Source: Desulfovibrio sp. UCD-KL4C (GTDB lineage Bacteria > Desulfobacterota > Desulfovibrionia > Desulfovibrionales > Desulfovibrionaceae). Taken from it: a stretch of DNA of 64,000 bases. Under the pieces are notes generated by a model, which was not told the origin of the DNA, did no database searches, and worked only from the letters and a program-made list of their open reading frames with translations. The position numbers and the translations under genes are program-made. This document shows positions 1 through 62,392 of this stretch, in pieces (within the stretch, counting starts at the first letter, position 1; every line of letters starts with the position of its first letter). The stretch lies in contig NZ_VCNC01000002.1 of the NCBI RefSeq assembly GCF_006210265.1, positions 496,001-560,000 of the forward strand, in the 5' to 3' direction.

Positions 1-377
1 CCTTTTTCAGCTTTTCGGTATAATCCCTTTGGATCTCTTTTTTTCAAAACATCCAAATGGCAATCGACAAAAACTTCGATATAATCTTCTATCAACTGAC
101 GATTTTGCTCTCTGACTTCTGCATAGGGGGAAATCATAGCAACAATTGAGATAACACCGTGTTTATTAAGTAGCTTTGAAACAAAGCCAACCCTTTTAAC
201 ATTAATATCACGATGTTCTTTTGAAAATGTAAGATCCTGAGCAAAATTATTTCTGATTATATCACCGTCAAGTAATTCAACTGCAAGATTACACTTTACA
301 ATTTCTTCATACACCCGTGACGAAATTGAGGATTTCCCCGCACCTGAAAGACCTGTAAACCAGAGAGTAAAACTCAC
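1..377 (-). CDS. cysC: Adenylylsulfate (APS) kinase, C-terminus cut by window edge
   Basis: Phosphorylates APS to PAPS in the cytoplasm. The reading frame opens at a GTG directly after an in-frame TAA, with a GGTGAGG ribosome site just upstream. The first residues give LWFTGLSGAGKSS, the P-loop of APS kinases. The family's LDGD substrate motif is present (ELLDGDIIRNNF), followed by ISPYAEVR and, at the cut end, DPKGLYRKAEK. These are the canonical APS kinase motifs, unlike the divergent copy near 53.7 kb. About 125 residues are visible; the rest lies beyond base 1. It starts 14 bases after the stop of the sugar transferase gene, so the two are probably cotranscribed. That context suggests PAPS for sulfation of a polysaccharide, which is an inference. 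A bifunctional protein with a further domain cannot be excluded. Confidence 0.88.
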   Translation of the reverse strand, partial: MSFTLWFTGLSGAGKSSISSRVYEEIVKCNLAVELLDGDIIRNNFAQDLTFSKEHRDINVKRVGFVSKLLNKHGVISIVAMISPYAEVREQNRQLIEDYIEVFVDCHLDVLKKRDPKGLYRKAEK

Positions 378-6009: not shown

Positions 6010-7977
6010 CTAATAAAGTATTTTTGTAATTAAAGATGAATCACCTTCGATTTGCACTTCTGAGACAACTGTTACGCTTGGCACCTTTATTCCAAAACTG
6101 CGCGAAACCCACCCAGAAGGAATTTCAGAGTTTCCGCATACAATTCTGACTAAAGCGGACTCCCCGAATAGCAATTCCAGCTTTACACCATTATTTGAAG
6201 CAATAATTCTATGTGGTCCATCAAATATAACTTCACACTTCTCACTAAAATGCCAAAAAGTTTCCACAAAATGAGCTTCTTTACAATGGATATGATCCTG
6301 AACAACAATTTGCTGTCCAGCTTTATTAAGCGATATTACTCTTTCATGTGTCACAGAATCGTTTAAACGTTCATAACCATTATGCCTACCGCGAAAATTT
6401 TCAATACTTTGATCAAAATGAACTTCTCCTTCTGAACGTGCGTGAGTTTTCCATAGAAAATCTCCCCCCTGTTCACTTTGATCACACCTATCTATCCGCA
6501 CCGTATTATGAGCAGAAGTTCCGCGAAAATATTCGCGCCATGCAGGTTTACTATTATAAACATATGTTCCAGGATCAATTAGAAATTCGCGTTTTTTGTA
6601 GCTCAAATATATAGATAAAGCATCTGCATGGCCGTGTGCAGCAAGTCTTCCATAGCCAAGAGGCCCAGAGTAAACAACAATGAAAAGTTCTAATTCTGAA
6701 GAAAAATTGTCACCTAAAATATAATAACCACCATTTTCAAAACTTCGTTTGAACAGAATATTTTCTGCAGAGATAAGAGGTTTAATGGAATCACGATCTA
6801 TCCCTGTCAAACAAACAGATTTAAGATCATATCCCCCAGCGCGACTTAAAAAATCATCACGCGAAAACAAATATCCAGCAGTTGCAAGGATGGACTTATA
6901 AGGATCAGATTCAGAATATAGTCCAAGGCCAGTCACATTTCCATCATCAGCATCGCCGATCAGGGGTAAGTTTCCAGATCCATTAGTCATCGACGCAATG
7001 AAACTTACCATATTCTCAATAGTATTAATGTAAGACTCAGAAAATGCTTTTTTGTCTGCCAGGTAGGAAATTAGAAAAAAATCAATGACAAATTGCTGAT
7101 ATGAAATTGCCTGTTCCTTATCAACTCCATCAGAAAAGATTTGCCTATCTGCTTCCTGTTCAAGTATTTGCAAAGCTCTGGATTTCCATTTTTTACAATT
7201 CTTCCAAAACGGCCAAGTTGTGCACGCGATGAAAACTCCAGCCGCTTCACCTATAAGATGATTATTAGCGGACGATCCTTTTGAATACCAAGCGTCAATG
7301 AAATGCATGTGCTGAAAAATAGAAGTAAGCCATCTATCACGAAATTTATGCCCTGCAGCTCCTTTAAACAAAGGTGAATTAATCCCTCCTATATACTGCC
7401 ATGCAATGCTCCAATTTATAAGCCTGACACCTATCTCAAGAGAACTATTCCAATTAACTCCCAGCATATACGGGCACTGATCAAGCCATGATTCAATCAT
7501 CAAATGAACTGCTTTAATATATTTCTCATCCCCTGTTACATGCCACGCACGGGCTAAAGGAACTACTTGAAGAAATCGAGAAATCTCCCAAATATATTTA
7601 ATATCTCCGCAAAATGATTGATTTTTAAAATCTAATTTCTTACCAAATTTAAGAGGACAGGTAACTCCAGTGAGAGGGTCAGTATTCCACTCAGGGACAA
7701 TACAGGGGAATTTGTCTTCAAGAGCAAAAAGAACCAGTCCCTCATTTAGAACAGAATCTGCCGAAGAAATGATGAGTTGCTTAACAGACTCCAATCCATT
7801 CATCGAAAGCCATATTTCACCATCACTATTTAAATCAGTGTAAGGAATTTTGGACGCGGTCAAGAAGCCTACAGATTCTAAATATGCTCTACATTTATTG
7901 CGTAGGCGGCATAAATTTTCTATAGGGCCCATAGCCTTAAACCTGTTTACAAACCATACAAATTTATAAGATTTCAT
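6010..7977 (-). CDS. Heparinase II/III-like / alginate lyase family protein
   Basis: 655 residues. The N-terminal half is an alpha-helical barrel-like region (WSIAWQYIGG, GSSANNHLIGEAAG with the conserved NNH pattern, and DADDGN). The C-terminal half is beta-rich, with AHGHADALSIYLSY and IDPGTYVYNSK, the signature of the heparinase II/III-like lyase domain. No signal peptide is evident at the start (MKSYKFVWFVNRFKAMGP), so export is uncertain. Such proteins accompany exosortase and exopolysaccharide loci, where they may trim or modify an acidic polymer. It lies between the exosortase gene and the dead polymerase gene on the same strand. Substrate unknown. Confidence 0.85.
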   Translation of the reverse strand: MKSYKFVWFVNRFKAMGPIENLCRLRNKCRAYLESVGFLTASKIPYTDLNSDGEIWLSMNGLESVKQLIISSADSVLNEGLVLFALEDKFPCIVPEWNTDPLTGVTCPLKFGKKLDFKNQSFCGDIKYIWEISRFLQVVPLARAWHVTGDEKYIKAVHLMIESWLDQCPYMLGVNWNSSLEIGVRLINWSIAWQYIGGINSPLFKGAAGHKFRDRWLTSIFQHMHFIDAWYSKGSSANNHLIGEAAGVFIACTTWPFWKNCKKWKSRALQILEQEADRQIFSDGVDKEQAISYQQFVIDFFLISYLADKKAFSESYINTIENMVSFIASMTNGSGNLPLIGDADDGNVTGLGLYSESDPYKSILATAGYLFSRDDFLSRAGGYDLKSVCLTGIDRDSIKPLISAENILFKRSFENGGYYILGDNFSSELELFIVVYSGPLGYGRLAAHGHADALSIYLSYKKREFLIDPGTYVYNSKPAWREYFRGTSAHNTVRIDRCDQSEQGGDFLWKTHARSEGEVHFDQSIENFRGRHNGYERLNDSVTHERVISLNKAGQQIVVQDHIHCKEAHFVETFWHFSEKCEVIFDGPHRIIASNNGVKLELLFGESALVRIVCGNSEIPSGWVSRSFGIKVPSVTVVSEVQIEGDSSLITKILY

Positions 7978-8003
7978 CAGTACCTACTGTAAAAGAGTAA
8001 AAA

Positions 8004-8899
8004 TTAATAACGAATCCTTTTTGTTGCCTCTTTTTCAGCAATATCCATACTATAATCATAGGTCGGCAATTCTACATATGAAAGGACAGCATAAAAAAGC
8101 TGCCCTAGACCAAACTTCGTAATAGACCTATTACTTGCAAAATTCATAAAAATTAACAGTAATAAAAAAGGCCAAAAAAAGTATCGTTCTTTGTCTTTAA
8201 GCTACCGGATCTTCCTGAAAATACATAGCTACATCCCTAAATAAATCAACAATTCTACTATCCCAGTCTGCATCATCACTTCAAGGAAGTCATTATGACT
8301 ATTCCAAACATTTTCTCAAGGTTGGGCATCCATATGCGAGGACGACCAAATCCAAACGATTCAGCTTTAGCTCTTCCGCTTGCTGAGTCAACCATATCAA
8401 AGAAAATTGTGTACGAAGTCGCTGCAAAAATAACCCATAAGACTGCTAATATTCCAGTAAGAACAAGTAATAATTTTTTATTTCTCTTAAACAAATAATA
8501 ATAAACAAAAACCATCATCCTATAAGAGCTGTTCGCATATAACTCTTATACAAACAATATATAGCAAGTGATCCAAGCACCATAAAGAACAAAAACAATA
8601 TTTTTCTTTGTCGCAAAACCATCAAAAAATTCGGTTACATTCAAACCGAGAATCAGTCAGCCGACATCTATAGACATTATGGGCCGAAACAAAAAAAAGA
8701 GTGGCAATAATAAAGTCATAAATTCCTTCCAAGAATTATCAAAATTACTATAATACCAAATAAGTTGTCTAACTGATCTCAAATGAACAACGCACACCTT
8801 CAACAGAAGCTATTTGCGCCATATAAATACATGAAAAGGCATCAACACTCCAGCCGCTGATTCTAACTTAATTGAAGCATTTCTTAAACCAATTGTAAC
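8004..8899 (-). pseudogene. Degraded O-antigen ligase/Wzy-type polysaccharide polymerase
   Basis: Minus-strand translation gives a series of membrane-protein pieces in changing frames. In order: VTIGLRNASIK and MPFHVFIW (8899-8810); HLRSVRQLIWYYSNFDNSWKEF and LPLFFLFRP (about 8800-8657); ILGLNVTEFFDGF (from 8653); FMVLGSLAIYCLYKSYMRTALIG (to 8517); FVYYYLFKRN through GRPRIW (8518-8276); HNDFLEVMMQTGIVELL (near 8295-8232); and a tail ending EKEATKRIRY at 8004. SRTA-like, GRxxIW and HNDFLE motifs in this order are typical of O-antigen ligase/Wzy proteins. At least five frame changes or stops separate them, and the total is shorter than the usual 400 or more residues, so part is probably also deleted. 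It lies 27 bases upstream of the heparinase-like gene. Confidence 0.82.
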
Positions 8900-52843: not shown

Positions 52844-53308
52844 TTAAGAAGGATTGCGTCCGTAGACTTCTTTGGCAATTTTCCACTGACTCCCCTCAAG
52901 TACAAATTCGAAAGTAGGAGTAAATTTGCCACGTTCACTGGTGTCGCCATAATCCCATAAAACTCTGGCTGTGCATTTTTTAGCAGAAGATTCAAAAGAA
53001 GTAATTTTAAATAATCTTAGCTTAAATGCTTTCTCAATCCAATATGACGAGCAGCGTGGAAGACTATCGTAAAATTTATCAAGAGACATATCTTCTTTAT
53101 AATCACAAGGAAAAGACATTATGATAGCATCTTTGGTATAAAGAGCTTTAATTGCGGCAAAATCTCTAAGATTATATGAGTCTTTATATGCAAAAAGAAC
53201 ATCTTTAATTTCATCACGCACAGATTCACTTTGCTCTGCGGCAAAGGCTGAACCAGCAATGGACAATATCAATAATACTGAAATTAATAAAAATGAAAGT
53301 TTCTTCAC
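52844..53308 (-). CDS. Secreted NTF2/SnoaL-like protein
   Basis: 154 residues. Signal peptide with cleavage near SAFAAEQ (about residue 24), so periplasmic. The mature part resembles an NTF2-fold domain: VRDEIKDVLFAYKDSYNLRDFAAIKALYTKDAIIMSFPCD and CTARVLWDYGDTSERGKFTPTFEFVLEGSQWKIAKEVYGRN. The fold commonly binds small ligands or acts as an enzyme; no active site could be assigned. Alone, with its own terminator. Confidence 0.78.
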   Translation of the reverse strand: MKKLSFLLISVLLILSIAGSAFAAEQSESVRDEIKDVLFAYKDSYNLRDFAAIKALYTKDAIIMSFPCDYKEDMSLDKFYDSLPRCSSYWIEKAFKLRLFKITSFESSAKKCTARVLWDYGDTSERGKFTPTFEFVLEGSQWKIAKEVYGRNPS

Positions 53309-53372: not shown

Positions 53373-53981
53373 TCAGCATATGCCGTTAAGATTTCGCCAT
53401 TTCTTTATGCAAACAATAACTTCCTGTAGAATCTGCTCCGGATTTTTTTCTGCGGTATCAACGCTGCACTGCGCATCAGGATCAATTTCAAACCTCACAT
53501 CAACGCCGATAACTTCTCCTAAATCTTTGAAGACTTTTCCTGTTTTTTGACGTTCCAAAGCTTTTGCATAAAGACCTGCCATAACAAGTCCCTGCTGCCT
53601 ACCTGCTTCCCGCTTCATAGCCATGTTAACTGGACATTCCAGATGGACCTCGGCAAAAAATTCTATTTTATCTCTGGCTTCCTTGCGAAAACACAGCTCA
53701 TGCCCAGTGCCATCCATAATAACGCTTCGGCCGGATTGCATGATAGCAACAGCATCCTGCACAAACAGATGGTATACCAGTCTCCGTTCATCATGTGTAT
53801 ATTCAGGGTTAGGAACATACAATTTACGCCTTTCATCGAGTCTTAACAGAACAGGGTCAAGGCCATTCTTGCGCATTTCTTTTAATAAACCGTCAGCTAT
53901 GGTACTTTTTCCGCACCCAGGAAGCCCAGTAAACCAGACCGCCCAATTTTTATTAACGCATATACCTTTCGAATCCGGCAT
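53373..53981 (-). CDS. Divergent CysC-like P-loop kinase
   Basis: 202 residues from the ATG at 53981, chosen for the GAGGAGG site 9 bases upstream. Walker A is WFTGLPGCGKST, close to APS kinase, and the C-terminal AGLYAKALERQ resembles the APS kinase lid GLYKKA. However, the APS-binding LDGD is replaced by LLRLDERRKLY, followed by YTHDERRLVYHLFVQ and VIMDGTGHELCFRKEAR. The substrate is therefore probably not APS. It overlaps the APH-like gene by 29 bases, so they are translated together. A kinase for a sugar or nucleoside derivative fits the neighbours. Confidence 0.78.
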   Translation of the reverse strand: MPDSKGICVNKNWAVWFTGLPGCGKSTIADGLLKEMRKNGLDPVLLRLDERRKLYVPNPEYTHDERRLVYHLFVQDAVAIMQSGRSVIMDGTGHELCFRKEARDKIEFFAEVHLECPVNMAMKREAGRQQGLVMAGLYAKALERQKTGKVFKDLGEVIGVDVRFEIDPDAQCSVDTAEKNPEQILQEVIVCIKKWRNLNGIC

Positions 53982-55035
53982 AATCAAAAACCTCCTCCTC
54001 AAGCACATTTTCAATAAACCTTAAAAGTGAAGAGCGTACTGTTTCTGGATGATCTGGATACCACACAGGAGAAGCTATAACGAGTCCTCTGAAAACAAAG
54101 AACGGAGCAATAACCTGTAATATTTCAATATCTCCGGTTTTTTCGAGATATCGCTCAAAGTAAGTCATATACATCTTTCTAAACTGTTCGGAGAAAGATC
54201 CGCCTTTGTATAAACCGAAAAGAATATAATTTGCGGCCATACAACTTAAGTCTCCAGCAGCTTCGCCCCATTCCCCGCGGCTTCTATCTAAAACGCTGAA
54301 ACCATCTGAACCGTCGACAAGCACATTCCACGGATGAAAATCTCCATGAACAGCGCAAAGTCTGTGCGTATAATGTGCAAGCTTCCATCTCCAATCAATA
54401 AGGCGCTTTTCAAGTTTTATAAATCTACCCTGCGAAAAATGCTCACATGGATGACTGTATGCTTCATCTACCAATCCCATAATACACTCACTGCTTCCGA
54501 TAAGTTCTCTTACTCTGCGCATATAAAGCGATGGATCATCTTTTTTAAGTGAGTGAATATCCACGAGCCAGTCTGATAATTCTCCGGCACGGTCATTATC
54601 AGAATCTAAAAATTTTCCCTTACGAATGCGATCAAGATCATTAAAGTAATCGTACCCTTCAAGCTTTTCATTTAAAATAAAAAACTCTTCCGGCTCGCTG
54701 AGCGGAATCATTTTACCGGATTTATTAACGTATCCTAATCCCATTGGTCTCACATGACGCTTAAGACTGCCGGAAGTTTCGTACTGAAACATTAAAACAG
54801 CCGCGCGGTCCCAATAAAACTGATGCCCGTAATTATCACCTTTCATAACGGAAATTACAGTTTCCTGCACTTTTCCTTTAACCTTAAAACGAACAAGAAG
54901 AGGCTTCCCGTAACCGAACTTTTTCATCCCCTGTTTATCTAGTGATCCGATGTCACCGTAATCAACAAGGGCCGTTTCAGTACCGAAAGCCTCTTTCAGA
55001 TATTTTTCAATCATGTCGGAAGTTAATTCAACCAC
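53953..55035 (-). CDS. Aminoglycoside phosphotransferase-like (APH) family kinase
   Basis: 360 residues. GTG start with GGGAGG 8 bases upstream. The kinase-like fold has the catalytic Brenner motif LCAVHGDFHPWNVLVDG (residues about 225-240). The metal-binding Asp lies in SVLDRSRGEWGEAAGDLSCMAANY, where DRSRG replaces the usual DxD pattern. An N-terminal lobe (YGDIGSLDKQG.. VRFKVKGKVQETVISVMKGDNYGHQF) precedes it. Small-molecule phosphotransferase of unknown substrate. It lies between the PfkB gene (93 bases upstream) and the overlapping CysC-like gene. Confidence 0.85.
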   Translation of the reverse strand: MVELTSDMIEKYLKEAFGTETALVDYGDIGSLDKQGMKKFGYGKPLLVRFKVKGKVQETVISVMKGDNYGHQFYWDRAAVLMFQYETSGSLKRHVRPMGLGYVNKSGKMIPLSEPEEFFILNEKLEGYDYFNDLDRIRKGKFLDSDNDRAGELSDWLVDIHSLKKDDPSLYMRRVRELIGSSECIMGLVDEAYSHPCEHFSQGRFIKLEKRLIDWRWKLAHYTHRLCAVHGDFHPWNVLVDGSDGFSVLDRSRGEWGEAAGDLSCMAANYILFGLYKGGSFSEQFRKMYMTYFERYLEKTGDIEILQVIAPFFVFRGLVIASPVWYPDHPETVRSSLLRFIENVLEEEVFDYAGFERYMR

Positions 55036-55128
55036 TTCAATATCCTCCCACTTAATGAAAATTAAGTAAGCCAGACGAAGAAAGTTAATAGCCGACAGAT
55101 TATTTACAATAAAAGTTATCCGTTTGCG

Positions 55129-56061
55129 CTATAATTCTCCGAAACTGGATTTGTAGCGGGCCCAGAATTCATCTTCAGTATAAGAATGTTCCTGAGTACC
55201 GAGCTTTTCAACACAATAAACAGCACTGACAGCTCCAATATGTGCAGACTCAACCAAATTTTTTCCAAGAGAGAGACCTTTAATAAGGCCGGCTCTGAAA
55301 GCATCTCCTGCTCCGGTGGGATCTTTAACTTCGCTTGCTTTGGCGGCAGGCACAGCAGTTTCACCGTTTTTTTCTACAACAAGGCAACCATTTTCACCTA
55401 GAGTAACGATAATGGAGTCACAAATCTCCATTAATTCGTCTCTGGTTTTCTCAGTAGATTTCATGATCATTTCAAGTTCATAATCATTCGCTACAAGAAT
55501 TTTACAACCTTTAATCATACCAAGAAGCTGTTCGCCGTTGAATGCTGGAATATTCTGACCCGGATCAAAAATATAAGAAATACCCTTTTGTCTATATATT
55601 TCAGGGAAATTCTGCATATCATCAAGGTTACCTGGAGAAACGATTGCCAGAGTCTTTTTAGAATCAACTGCGGAAAAGTCGTAATCGCAGGAGTATTTCA
55701 TGGCTCCAAGGTTAAACCAAGTGATCTGGTTATTGGACTTATCTGTAGTAATATAAGCACTTGCAGTAAAATCTGAGTCAACAACCTTAATACCGTCAAT
55801 AGCTATTTCATGTTTAGTCAGCCACTTATTATAAGCGTCAAAATCTTTACCCACAGTTCCAAGGATCACAGGTTTTTCACTGAATAAAGACAGTGCATAA
55901 GCTATATTACCAGCTGTTCCTCCGAATCTTTCATCAAGTCCGTCTACGAGCAGGCTTATATTCAACATGTGAATTTTATCAGGAATAATGTGATCAGAAA
56001 AACTACCTGGAAAGCTCATAATTCTATCATAAGCCATGGATCCTGAAACTAAAATCTGCAT
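55129..56061 (-). CDS. PfkB family carbohydrate/nucleoside kinase
   Basis: 310 residues. N-terminal GSMAYDRIMSFPG and LLVDGLDERFGGTAGNIAYALSLF, then the C-terminal anion-hole motif DPTGAGDAFRAGLIKGLSLG, both PfkB signatures. The N-terminal pattern is close to adenosine kinase-like proteins. ATP-dependent phosphorylation of a sugar or nucleoside; the exact substrate is not clear. AAGGAG lies before the ATG. First of three successive kinase genes. Confidence 0.9.
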   Translation of the reverse strand: MQILVSGSMAYDRIMSFPGSFSDHIIPDKIHMLNISLLVDGLDERFGGTAGNIAYALSLFSEKPVILGTVGKDFDAYNKWLTKHEIAIDGIKVVDSDFTASAYITTDKSNNQITWFNLGAMKYSCDYDFSAVDSKKTLAIVSPGNLDDMQNFPEIYRQKGISYIFDPGQNIPAFNGEQLLGMIKGCKILVANDYELEMIMKSTEKTRDELMEICDSIIVTLGENGCLVVEKNGETAVPAAKASEVKDPTGAGDAFRAGLIKGLSLGKNLVESAHIGAVSAVYCVEKLGTQEHSYTEDEFWARYKSSFGEL

Positions 56062-59638: not shown

Positions 59639-60415
59639 TTATAAACCCAACTGCTTCACAACCTGCTTAAGAATTACATCAATCTCATCTGATTCAGGAA
59701 TATTTAACACGTTACCATCCGCCATCTGTCGCTCAATCAGCCCTTGAAACGGCGGAATTGTTATATACCACTTGGGAAGACACGGTAGGTCAGGAGGATT
59801 TCCACCCTGATAACGGTTTACAACCATAACCTGATTATCAAGTCCCAATTCTATTCCCATGCGGGCAACATCTGATGCGGTCTGAAAACTGCGCATACTC
59901 GGTTCAGACACAATAACAAGACCGTCAACATGCGTCACTGTCCCCCGCCCCAAATGTTCCACTCCTGCTTCCAGATCAACAAGGACACAATCCTTACTAT
60001 CCATCACAACGTGTGCCAAAAGCGCCTTAAGTAAGGCATTAGCATCGCATGCACATCCACCGCCTGCATTGGTAAGTCCGCCCATAACAAGCAGCCGCTT
60101 ACGTCCGGGGGGTATACCGTGCAAAGGGGGCGAAGACAGCGGGATATCCACAGCAAGTTCATCCGGCAAATCCCCTACATCAGGATTAAGGTTAAGAAAA
60201 CCTCCCTCATGAATACGATCATGCACGAGATCTTTTCTGCTAATTATAGGCTGTGGCAATGAATCATGATCAAGCCCTGACGCCTGCCCCAGTGACAAAG
60301 CAGTATCTGCGTCAATCATCCAGACATTATGTCCATTTCTAGCCAGCCAATCCGCCATCCATGCGGTAACCGAAGTCTTTCCTACTCCGCCTTTTCCTGC
60401 AAATGCCAGTTTCAT
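59639..60415 (-). CDS. cooC: CO dehydrogenase maturation ATPase CooC
   Basis: 258 residues. Nickel-insertion ATPase of the MinD/SIMIBI type. P-loop FAGKGGVGKTSVTAWMAD at the start, WMIDADTALSLGQ, the cysteine pair region GGCACDANALLKALL that can bind metal, LVDLEAGVEHLGRG and VSEPSMRSFQTASDVARM. It follows cooS by 18 bases and is in the same operon. Confidence 0.96.
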   Translation of the reverse strand: MKLAFAGKGGVGKTSVTAWMADWLARNGHNVWMIDADTALSLGQASGLDHDSLPQPIISRKDLVHDRIHEGGFLNLNPDVGDLPDELAVDIPLSSPPLHGIPPGRKRLLVMGGLTNAGGGCACDANALLKALLAHVVMDSKDCVLVDLEAGVEHLGRGTVTHVDGLVIVSEPSMRSFQTASDVARMGIELGLDNQVMVVNRYQGGNPPDLPCLPKWYITIPPFQGLIERQMADGNVLNIPESDEIDVILKQVVKQLGL

Positions 60416-60433
60416 AAGCTACTCCGTCAACTT

Positions 60434-62311
60434 CTATTCGCTAAGTCCCAGTCCTTTACGCTTAGCTTTGATGCGTATATCAAAAAGCTCTGCAGCCTTA
60501 ACCGGATCAGGCTCAATAACAAACGAAGCTCCGACAAGATCTTCAAGGCCGGAAACGGCAAGGTTGGTAACAGTTTCAGAGCCGAGAATATGCGGAGGAT
60601 GACCGAGATGAGTATAAATTCCGCTGGCAACAGCATAAAGACCGATGGCTGCTGCTTTTTCAGAATACCACTCTGGAGAAGAAGCTCCGACAGGCAGATC
60701 ACTGATATCAACATTTAAAGCGTTTGCCAGTGCTGCACAAAGCTGAAGGATACGTGCATTATCAACGCATGACCCGTAATGCAAAACAGGAGGAATTCCA
60801 AGCGCACCGCAAACTTTTTTAAGACCGGGACCTGCCATTTCAATGGCTTCCGGCACAAGAAGTCCGGCTTTACCTGCAGCGGTTGTTACGCACCCTGTGA
60901 CCAGAACAAGAATATCTTTCTTGATGAGCTCCTTTGCAAGACCGACATTCATAGAATCCTGTTTGAACTTAGGATTATTACAGCCGACAATTCCAACGGC
61001 ACCACGAACATCTCCGGCAACAATCGCTTGAACCAATGGATCAAGAGTACCACCGAGCGCAGAAATTACTGCTTCGTTTGAAAAACCTGTCATAATTTTT
61101 ACTGGTTCACAGGGAATATCAACACGCGATGCATCACGTTCAGCGTAAGCTTTAACTGCAAGCTGGACTATCTCACGAGCCTGCTCAAGTGCGTTGCTTG
61201 GGTGAATATCAAAATGAATAGCACCGGAAAATCTGGCTTTTTGTGCAGTATCAATAAATCTAGTGTGATAGCAGCCGGAGACCTGCACAAGGCTCGGCAT
61301 AATACACTGATAATCGACAACAACAGCTTCAACGGCTCCGGTGATGATGGCCAGTTCAGTCATCAAATGGTTACCAGCCATAGGAATTCCCTGACGCATA
61401 AGCAATTCGTTACCTGTGCAACAAAGTCCTGCGACATTAATCCCGGTAGCACCTAGTGCTTTTGCTTCAGCTATAATCTTTGGATCACGAGCCGCGGCAA
61501 GAATCATTTCTGAAACAACCGGATTATGTCCGTGAACAAGAATATTTACTTTGTCTTCTTTGATAACGCCTAAATTGGCCTCAGACATAGAAGGTGAAGG
61601 AGTTCCGAAAATAACATCTGAAAGTTCGGTTCCGATCATAGAACCGCCCCACCCGTCAGACAGGGATGTTCTTGCCGCATGAAGCATCGTATTCGGCGCA
61701 TCATTATCACAGCCCATATGGGTACGATGCATCATTTCAGCGATTTCACGGTCAACACCGCGAGGAGTCATACCAAGCTTATTCCAAATATCTTTACGTT
61801 TTTGAGGAACACGTGAAAGAAATGAAATTTCTTTTTTGCGACTTCCAAAGTCACCGAAAAAGACTTCTAAAATATCAGTAGCAACTGCTTTAACATCCCG
61901 GTCTGCAACGGCAATTCCAACCTCTTCTGCTATTCGTCTGAGCTTGGATTCGTCAGTTATTTTATAGTCAGTTGTTTCACCCTCTACAATAGCTTCAAGA
62001 ACTTCAATCAAGTCTCGTCCATGGTCAGAATGCCCAGCGGAACCACCTGCGACAAAACGGCCGAAATTGCGGGCAACAATAACATCAGCATCCGCCCCGC
62101 AAACTCCACGAGGAGCTTTAGGAGTAATTTTACATGGTCCCATGGTACAGTTACGACAACTGACCCCAAGTTCACAGAATTTACAATGAGGCGTTTGTTG
62201 CTGTAGCCTTTCGTGAACAGTCTCTATCCCCTCAGCTCTAGCCTTGGTTATCATAGCCTGTGCATCATCCCAAATAGACAACTCTTCTACCGGAAGCGGT
62301 TGCTTTGCCAT
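60434..62311 (-). CDS. cooS: Anaerobic carbon monoxide dehydrogenase, catalytic subunit
   Basis: 625 residues from the ATG at 62311 (GGGAGAG 7 bases upstream; an upstream ATG at 62368 has no ribosome site). Oxidises CO to CO2 with a Ni-Fe-S C-cluster. N-terminal iron-sulfur cysteines CKFCELGVSCRNCTMGPC (B and D clusters), then C-cluster ligands in HGHNPVVSE (His), GLCCTGNE, VDYQCIMPS, VGCNNPK, VTGCVTTAAG and YGSCVDNAR. All ligands are present. Monofunctional type; no acetyl-CoA synthase or CO-induced hydrogenase genes are in this window. Controlled by the CooA site at 62418. Confidence 0.97.
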   Translation of the reverse strand: MAKQPLPVEELSIWDDAQAMITKARAEGIETVHERLQQQTPHCKFCELGVSCRNCTMGPCKITPKAPRGVCGADADVIVARNFGRFVAGGSAGHSDHGRDLIEVLEAIVEGETTDYKITDESKLRRIAEEVGIAVADRDVKAVATDILEVFFGDFGSRKKEISFLSRVPQKRKDIWNKLGMTPRGVDREIAEMMHRTHMGCDNDAPNTMLHAARTSLSDGWGGSMIGTELSDVIFGTPSPSMSEANLGVIKEDKVNILVHGHNPVVSEMILAAARDPKIIAEAKALGATGINVAGLCCTGNELLMRQGIPMAGNHLMTELAIITGAVEAVVVDYQCIMPSLVQVSGCYHTRFIDTAQKARFSGAIHFDIHPSNALEQAREIVQLAVKAYAERDASRVDIPCEPVKIMTGFSNEAVISALGGTLDPLVQAIVAGDVRGAVGIVGCNNPKFKQDSMNVGLAKELIKKDILVLVTGCVTTAAGKAGLLVPEAIEMAGPGLKKVCGALGIPPVLHYGSCVDNARILQLCAALANALNVDISDLPVGASSPEWYSEKAAAIGLYAVASGIYTHLGHPPHILGSETVTNLAVSGLEDLVGASFVIEPDPVKAAELFDIRIKAKRKGLGLSE

Positions 62312-62392
62312 ACTCGTACTCTCCCTGTTTTTAAAAGAACAAAAATAAACTGCTTGTCTTGAAAACACCCCTGTATTCAGGACCTCAACAAC

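Follow-up and report, generated by a model that had tools for sequence, protein, structure and literature searches.

The 64,000-nucleotide stretch of Desulfovibrio sp. UCD-KL4C analysed here (below, the window) contains a two-kinase module. It is formed by a kinase gene of the aminoglycoside phosphotransferase (APH) fold and a gene for a P-loop kinase similar to the adenylylsulfate (APS) kinase CysC, with a PfkB-family gene of the nucleoside kinase type as a frequent neighbour. The APH-like and CysC-like proteins very probably constitute a functional unit of some kind. Both enzymes have known folds and belong to known superfamilies; the pair as a system may be new. A search of titles and the beginnings of abstracts, with most subscription journals and preprints outside its range, found no paper on the pair, apart from the gene treated in PMC3146512.

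The APH-like gene (positions 53953-55035, minus strand) starts with GTG and encodes a small-molecule kinase of 360 amino acids with the signatures HGDFHPWN and LDRSRG (Pfam APH, 38 bits, cut-off 23.2). It is followed on the same strand by the CysC-like gene (53373-53981; 202 amino acids from ATG; Pfam APS_kinase, 43 bits, cut-off 21.1). The end of the former and the start of the latter overlap by 29 bases (53953-53981, minus strand), which suggests translational coupling. The ATG is preceded by a purine-rich GAGGAGGAGG run, and TTG at 54014 is only the mechanical start of the CysC-like open reading frame. The preliminary description of this region had reported a row of three minus-strand kinase genes, with a 29-base overlap between the second and the third. 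Both the row, with Pfam matches to PfkB, APH and APS_kinase, and the overlap were confirmed.

Distribution of the APH-CysC pair

Among 150 genomes of Desulfovibrionales, the APH-like gene is present in 76, the CysC-like gene in 77, and both in 76. The sole genome with one gene and not the other has the CysC-like gene only and is 66% complete. Where both are present, the CysC-like gene lies directly behind the APH-like gene on the same strand in 68 genomes and apart from it in eight; the gaps between the matches of the 68 adjacent pairs range from -26 to 459 bases, with nine overlaps. Conservation of gene order within Desulfovibrionales, on which the preliminary description had staked its reading, thus holds for these two genes more often than expected by chance.

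The same two genes were also found together in more distant genomes. In 148 genomes of the archaeal phylum of locus L097, the APH-like gene occurs in 45, the CysC-like gene in 43, and both in 42 (adjacent in 15, apart in 27). The exceptions are a single genome with the CysC-like gene only and three with the APH-like gene only; in one of these three, a contig end carries a fragment. In the sample of the window's phylum, 10 of 198 genomes (two of them Desulfovibrionaceae) contain the APH-like gene, and the CysC-like gene adjoins it in nine. The phylum of L072 has three APH-like genes in 201 genomes, with an adjoining CysC-like gene in two cases, once on the opposite strand. Five genomes represent a small phylum, labelled Myxococcota on the basis of L064; four of them have the APH-like gene, each time with the CysC-like gene beside it and with a 4-base overlap in L241 and L242. 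The names Desulfobacterota, Chloroflexota and Halobacteriota, where used, are labels assigned in this analysis. Relatedness of the genomes inflates all co-occurrence counts. On the other hand, synteny alone does not easily explain why both genes are retained after they have separated.

The carriers are widely important anaerobes: about half of the sampled Desulfovibrionales, Methanocella, archaea labelled Methanophagales/ANME-1 and, we presume, Methanothrix. Its genes are currently labelled "APS kinase" and "aminoglycoside phosphotransferase", names that point to assimilation of sulfate and to drug resistance and may have hidden the pair. Because the two genes co-occur almost strictly, they offer a well-defined target for genetic work and enzyme assays.

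The second label raises the question of an antibiotic-resistance or anti-phage cassette. Apart from the Pfam APH match itself, this is suggested by weak PADLOC matches of the CysC-like proteins (mad8 for the window protein, E 0.0014; VakA for the member in L164, E 5e-6) and by a 29-bit match to a PHROG polynucleotide kinase. However, PADLOC and PHROG gave no match for the APH-like protein, and its plasmid matches span just 37% of the protein (Haladaptatus, in an unrelated context). No plasmid match of the CysC-like protein was found at 1e-10, and the distribution of the pair is chromosomal and clade-wide. We consider a resistance, mobile or defence cassette extremely improbable, and it was rejected on the PADLOC, PHROG and plasmid comparisons.

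A separate observation concerns a contig of a Solidesulfovibrio magneticus metagenome-assembled genome (L068), where two APH-CysC pairs (1314-2962 and 6812-8373) face each other. Their genes are 44-59% identical to those of the window, and the arrangement is either a real duplication or an assembly artefact.

Relation of the CysC-like protein to APS kinases

The window protein contains the motifs GLPGCGKST, GLYAKA and LLRLDERRKL. In the preliminary description it was a CysC look-alike without the APS motif. The P-loop, GLYAKA and LLRLDERRKL are indeed present, but the loss is smaller than claimed: of LDGD, just the first Asp and the Gly have disappeared, and the second Asp is retained as Asp49. 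According to PMC4373884, Asp480 of M. tuberculosis CysC is the proposed catalytic base, Arg483 and Arg497 bind phosphosulfate, Phe492 and Phe576 are assigned to the adenine, and Lys562 is also given a role. The pairing of residues with this enzyme is our own assignment, made from equal spacing and alignment.

The main alignment contained 42 bacterial CysC-like proteins (set A2), nine hand-picked archaeal members, and eight APS kinases chosen for containing LDGD. The A2 rows were hand-picked from a set of 49 thinned at 75% identity, with some left out and some added. L232, taken as a further APS kinase, does not contain LDGD and was therefore dropped from the comparison set. A later check of 41 further loci yielded 37 rows, in which some genes occur twice and a few were already in the 51-row alignment; the four loci yielding no row are L124/L132 and L143/L179 (two genomes).

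Asp49, corresponding to Asp480, is conserved in all 51 rows and in all 37 further rows, and so are Arg52 and Arg66, spaced like Arg483 and Arg497. The position of Phe492 is occupied by Tyr in 51 of 51 CysC-like rows. Tyr61 and Tyr70 are present in 51/51 and 37/37, whereas Phe predominates at the first of these positions in the eight APS kinases and Tyr occurs at neither. The first Asp of LDGD occurs in none of the 51 rows (the window protein reads LRLD). In the column of Lys562, Ala stands in 38 of the 42 bacterial rows and Lys in three of the nine archaeal ones. Asp90 and an Arg (R128) within a lid insertion are found in all 51 rows, and this insertion is absent from the eight APS kinases; a second insertion is specific to the bacterial CysC-like rows. 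The key residues of the window protein are thus the candidate base D49, the putative phosphate-binding pair R52/R66, Y61, Y70, D90, and the lid insertion with R128. In short, it has in common with APS kinases (PF01583; the A. fulgidus enzyme 7yq1, M. tuberculosis CysC) the P-loop fold, the catalytic Asp, the two phosphosulfate Arg residues and the GLYxKA core of the lid, and the window subfamily differs from them by loss of the first Asp of LDGD and the SPYR loop and by gain of D90, Y70, R128 and the lid insertion.

The CysC-like protein could also be an ordinary APS kinase whose motif has worn down and whose neighbours are accidental. The retained Asp and both Arg residues agree with this, as do the Pfam match above its cut-off and the structure: the AlphaFold2 model (pLDDT 94.1) has APS kinases as its nearest structures (7yq1, Z 22.8, rmsd 1.8, 172 residues aligned). 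However, the NCBIfam apsK model gives the window protein 51.6 bits against a cut-off of 138.7 (79.5 bits for the L072 member). In the tree, the 51 CysC-like members are split from the eight LDGD-type APS kinases with support 100/99 and a branch of 1.28, intermediate distant members not being included. The losses and gains listed above point in the same direction.

The distribution of ATP sulfurylase may also speak against this possibility. A strong match to A2 (E below 1e-32) was found in 43 of the 148 archaeal genomes, and only nine of these contain the PF01747 sulfurylase (34 do not; CysDN sulfurylase was not searched for). Weaker A2 matches (1e-31 to 1e-24) were found in 18 genomes, 17 of which contain PF01747; five of the 18 matches were read, and four have LDGD. 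The cut was set after the gap had been seen, and 14 other archaeal genomes with weaker matches, one with a sulfurylase, fall in neither class. Sulfate reducers such as the host of the window make APS anyway. Separate APS kinases occur beside the CysC-like protein in G663 and G692 (225.1 and 223.5 bits), and the genome of the window has its own LDGD-type CysC, encoded at window positions 1-374. Hence an APS kinase function is unlikely for the window protein: we regard the identification with an ordinary one as improbable and rejected it on the apsK score, the PF01747 distribution, the lost motif and the separate clade. The doubt of the preliminary description on this point was justified for the window protein.

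The boundary is less sharp among more distant members. In five of the 37 further rows (four genes: L120, L142/L178, L241, L242) the first Asp is present, within LDSD, and D90 is absent. A short RDPKG-type lid with Lys, of the kind found in APS kinases, was observed in nine rows (eight genes, including L118, L119, L122 and L123 from one Desulfobacterota family). All these LDSD and short-lid rows adjoin an APH-like gene. Because such distant APH-coupled members keep more APS-kinase features, the families grade into each other, from APS-kinase-like forms to the window form. This proximity is a further argument for an APS kinase. By the same comparison, the loss of the motif is a property of the Desulfovibrionales subfamily and of the archaeal rows read, rather than of every APH partner. 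The genes of L118-L120, L122, L123, L142, L241 and L242 are possible intermediates between APS kinase and the window enzyme.

One member of the family has probably entered a published pathway reconstruction already. The Methanocella paludicola genome paper counts MCP_1347, "adenylylsulfate kinase", in assimilatory sulfate reduction (PMC3146512), which would favour an APS kinase function. In G565, taken to be M. paludicola, the only full-length PF01583 match is the CysC-like gene at 1,342,916; two others are partial, at about 22 bits. MCP_1347 would be expected at about this position, and the APS kinase of the paper is therefore probably the CysC-like gene, the match between locus tag and position being inferred.

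Other CysC homologues were observed in passing. The APS kinase gene at window positions 1-374 (G000:C2:495934-496374; PF01583, 189 bits), truncated by the start of the window, adjoins a gene for a WcaJ-type sugar transferase (392-1801, 462 bits). Elsewhere in the genome, L248 (5937-6149; G000:C1, about 183,900) has a truncated LDGD-type CysC homologue, probably a broken gene, which extends as far as an IS3-family transposase gene (188 bits) of the opposite strand. An LDGD-containing homologue in L249 (5348-5893; G000:C1, about 203,400) has a very long tree branch and may be a further non-APS kinase; its neighbours, judged by eye, are nucleotidyltransferase and methyltransferase look-alikes.

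The APH-like kinase and its PfkB-family neighbour

The APH-like protein has both elements that define the APH fold, the HGDxxxxN catalytic loop and the metal-binding Asp. In alignment A1 (38 rows hand-picked from a set of 36 thinned at 75% identity, with some left out and some added, and the truncated L099 row excluded), HGD, HPWN, Asp250, Ser252, Arg253 and Gly254 are invariant in all rows and Arg251 is nearly so; F233 is present in at least 90% of the rows. The preliminary description had taken DRSRG for the absence of the usual DxD site. This was a misreading: since DRSRG is near-invariant across the 38 rows, it is the form that the metal-binding segment takes in this family and not a lost site. 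A degenerate metal site was rejected on the same residues.

No relative of this protein was found by sequence in the PDB (E up to 0.1), and no match among NCBIfam models (up to 0.01). The AlphaFold2 model is good (pLDDT 86.9, lower around residues 103-109) and is closest to 5-methylthioribose kinase, MtnK (2pun, 2pul, 2pyw), the highest-ranked match, with Z 22.3-22.9 (about 22.7), rmsd 4.1-4.4 and 301-318 residues aligned. PsiK is tied with it (Z 22.5) and is followed by Rv3168 (21.3), homoserine kinase (19.2) and APH(3') (about 18). The similarity to MtnK lies in the overall fold; the identity is only 10-13%, and the invariant DRSRG and the other motifs mark another family. A comparable combination of an APH-type and a P-loop kinase may exist in Rv2004c of M. 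tuberculosis, which we take to be a bifunctional APH/ATP-binding protein encoded next to a Usp gene. On this description, Rv2004c-type proteins would resemble those pair loci that have Usp genes nearby; in them the two kinases would be fused, whereas here they are encoded by separate genes.

The PfkB-family gene (55129-56061, minus strand; 310 amino acids; Pfam PfkB, 137 bits) is a facultative neighbour of the pair. Its product is similar over its full length to 3b1r/3b1n, deposited as a putative ribokinase (E about 1e-61 over residues 2-308), and to adenosine kinase (E about 3e-51 over residues 1-309). We assume the former to be the nucleoside kinase of Burkholderia thailandensis and the latter the M. 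tuberculosis enzyme, so that the window protein would be of the same type. No NCBIfam model scored above its cut-off, the best being the nucleoside kinase model NF041164 (131.9 bits, cut-off 450).

Neighbours were counted in 50 named loci, most of them labelled as Desulfovibrionales, with the loci having enough flank as denominators. These counts, like the gene orders of the archaeal loci described below, rest on tblastn; one listing of hits left out those covering less than 75% of the query. The CysC-like gene follows the APH-like gene in 41 of 45, the four misses being metagenome-assembled genomes of Desulfonatronospira. The PfkB gene is directly upstream in 26 of 40, cutA is upstream in 27 of 37, and miaB is downstream in 25 of 32. 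PfkB is thus tied to the pair no tighter than the unrelated cutA/miaB block. The three genes had originally been described as one pathway; an obligate PfkB-APH-CysC unit was rejected on these counts, and a fixed three-gene pathway found no support in them.

PfkB may then be merely positional, with cutA-pfkB-aph-cysC-miaB an inherited synteny and the nucleoside kinase working elsewhere in metabolism. The equal counts for PfkB, cutA and miaB agree with this explanation, to which we give slightly less than an even chance, and four Solidesulfovibrio-type loci (L066, L069, L071, L074) retain APH-CysC with no adjoining PfkB. Against it, a window-type PfkB gene adjoins the APH-like gene outside Desulfovibrionales, in L089 (same strand) and L128 (divergent). 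In the f2/g33 group of Desulfovibrionales genomes, which the data suggest are Desulfonatronospira, five of the six APH loci read keep PfkB-APH although the CysC-like gene has moved, the sixth locus being short. Finally, in four archaeal operons a second PfkB-family kinase, 22-24% identical to that of the window, lies between ahcY and the APH-like gene. It is closest to 3kd6 (311 bits), presumably also a nucleoside kinase. For this reason the PfkB link is not dismissed.

Genomic context and a candidate salvage route

Outside the conserved block of Desulfovibrionales, a suggestive neighbour is the S-adenosylhomocysteine hydrolase gene ahcY. It adjoins the APH-like gene in 12 of the 35 archaeal genomes read (45 carry the gene; 18 of the 35 neighbourhoods had flanks of only 1.5 kb). 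Seven of the 12 loci continue as APH-CysC-IMPase, the last encoding a phosphatase of the IMPase family, four have the second PfkB-family kinase in between, and three have a divergent metK; ahcY (648 bits) and metK (544 bits) both score above their cut-offs. In the f2/g33 genomes, the CysC-like gene is no longer part of the APH(-PfkB) locus; in six of the seven it is found at 1.3-1.6 kb from ahcY, and in the seventh at a contig end. In G093, the pair is directly behind the four genes of a PnrA/Bmp-type ABC transporter, a nucleoside-type transporter, and a xanthine phosphoribosyltransferase gene. These three contexts hint at salvage in the S-adenosylmethionine cycle or of purines, rather than at activation of sulfate.

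The CysC-like protein keeps the pocket for a phosphorylated acceptor and therefore fits as a second kinase acting on the product of the APH-like enzyme, or of PfkB. The fold of the APH-like protein and the ahcY link suggest a first substrate derived from a nucleoside or ribose. Serial phosphorylation of such a metabolite by the pair is accordingly the reading that we favour, at somewhat less than even odds. S-adenosylhomocysteine hydrolase would free adenosine from the S-adenosylmethionine cycle; in some methanogens, inosine is released instead. The PfkB enzyme would phosphorylate the nucleoside, and the APH-like enzyme, with its predicted fold nearest to 5-methylthioribose kinase, may phosphorylate a sugar hydroxyl of the nucleoside or of a 5-modified ribose. 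The CysC-like enzyme would then add a second phosphate to the phosphate-bearing product. Its acceptor may be held by the two Arg residues that bind phosphosulfate in APS kinases and deprotonated by the retained Asp.

Taken in full, this would be an unrecognised relay, in which an APH-fold kinase and then a kinase derived from APS kinase salvage the nucleoside or ribose of S-adenosylmethionine by-products in sulfate reducers and methane-cycling archaea. It would end in a doubly phosphorylated sugar or nucleotide, such as a compound similar to phosphoribosyl pyrophosphate, and the intermediate members would show the step from APS kinase. We propose it tentatively, as a possibility more doubtful than serial phosphorylation as such. 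If true, salvage of these by-products would fill a gap in nucleoside recycling in anaerobes rich in radical-SAM and methyltransferase reactions. The suggestion of nucleoside or sugar salvage in the preliminary description is retained in part: APH-CysC is a conserved unit, and some of its context points to nucleoside or ribose salvage, but PfkB is not a fixed third member. Stepwise phosphorylation of one metabolite, also proposed there, would agree with the data.

A number of observations weigh against the salvage reading. The fold match to MtnK, at the low identity given above, is a similarity of predicted fold alone and would not indicate a substrate. The ahcY gene is present in 143 of 150 Desulfovibrionales and so does not explain why about half of them carry the pair; as a presence/absence partner within this order it led nowhere. 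In the genome of the window, ahcY is on another contig, away from the pair. The neighbour is a gene other than ahcY in 23 of the 35 archaeal genomes, and in 13 of the 35 HMG-CoA synthase adjoins the APH-like gene. In three further lineages, Usp genes are no more than three genes away. They come this close to the pair in L064/L070, L072 and L126 and to the APH-like gene in L178/L179. In Desulfobacterales, FeoB is encoded near the pair. No CysC-like gene was found near the APH-like gene in G328 (13 kb read) and G440 (11.5 kb read), the rest of both genomes not having been searched. No SAM or SAH riboswitch was found in the window or in ten loci; more generally, the window contains no RNA family at threshold, matches at the locus were at chance level, and the ten loci yielded only tRNAs of L072.

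Some of these observations would fit a pair that phosphorylates a target other than a nucleoside, such as the head group of a lipid, a tRNA, a peptide or a stress signal linked to universal stress proteins (Usp). The Usp and HMG-CoA synthase neighbours are consistent with such targets. In fold, the APH-like model is also near choline kinase, PsiK and LxmK, and the CysC-like protein is weakly related to L-seryl-tRNA kinase (30 bits). However, the link to ahcY arises for each of the two genes separately, for the APH-like gene in archaea and for the CysC-like gene in sulfate reducers, and no such double link was seen for the other contexts. We therefore regard a non-nucleoside target as possible but doubtful.

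The HMG-CoA synthase gene adjoins the APH-like gene, divergently, in L144-L151, L154, L157 and L159-L161, with a weak partial match in L147. Its identity was checked on L183 only (550 bits), where a thiolase gene lies beyond it.

Two further features of the window were noted. Directly downstream of the CysC-like gene, positions 52844-53308 encode a secreted-looking protein, weakly similar to lumazine-binding proteins, which by tblastn is present, among the loci compared, only in L004-L011, L035 and L036. Positions 59639-62368 on the minus strand contain genes for the catalytic subunit of an anaerobic carbon-monoxide dehydrogenase (693 bits) and for a MinD/ParA-type ATPase, CooC-like by position.

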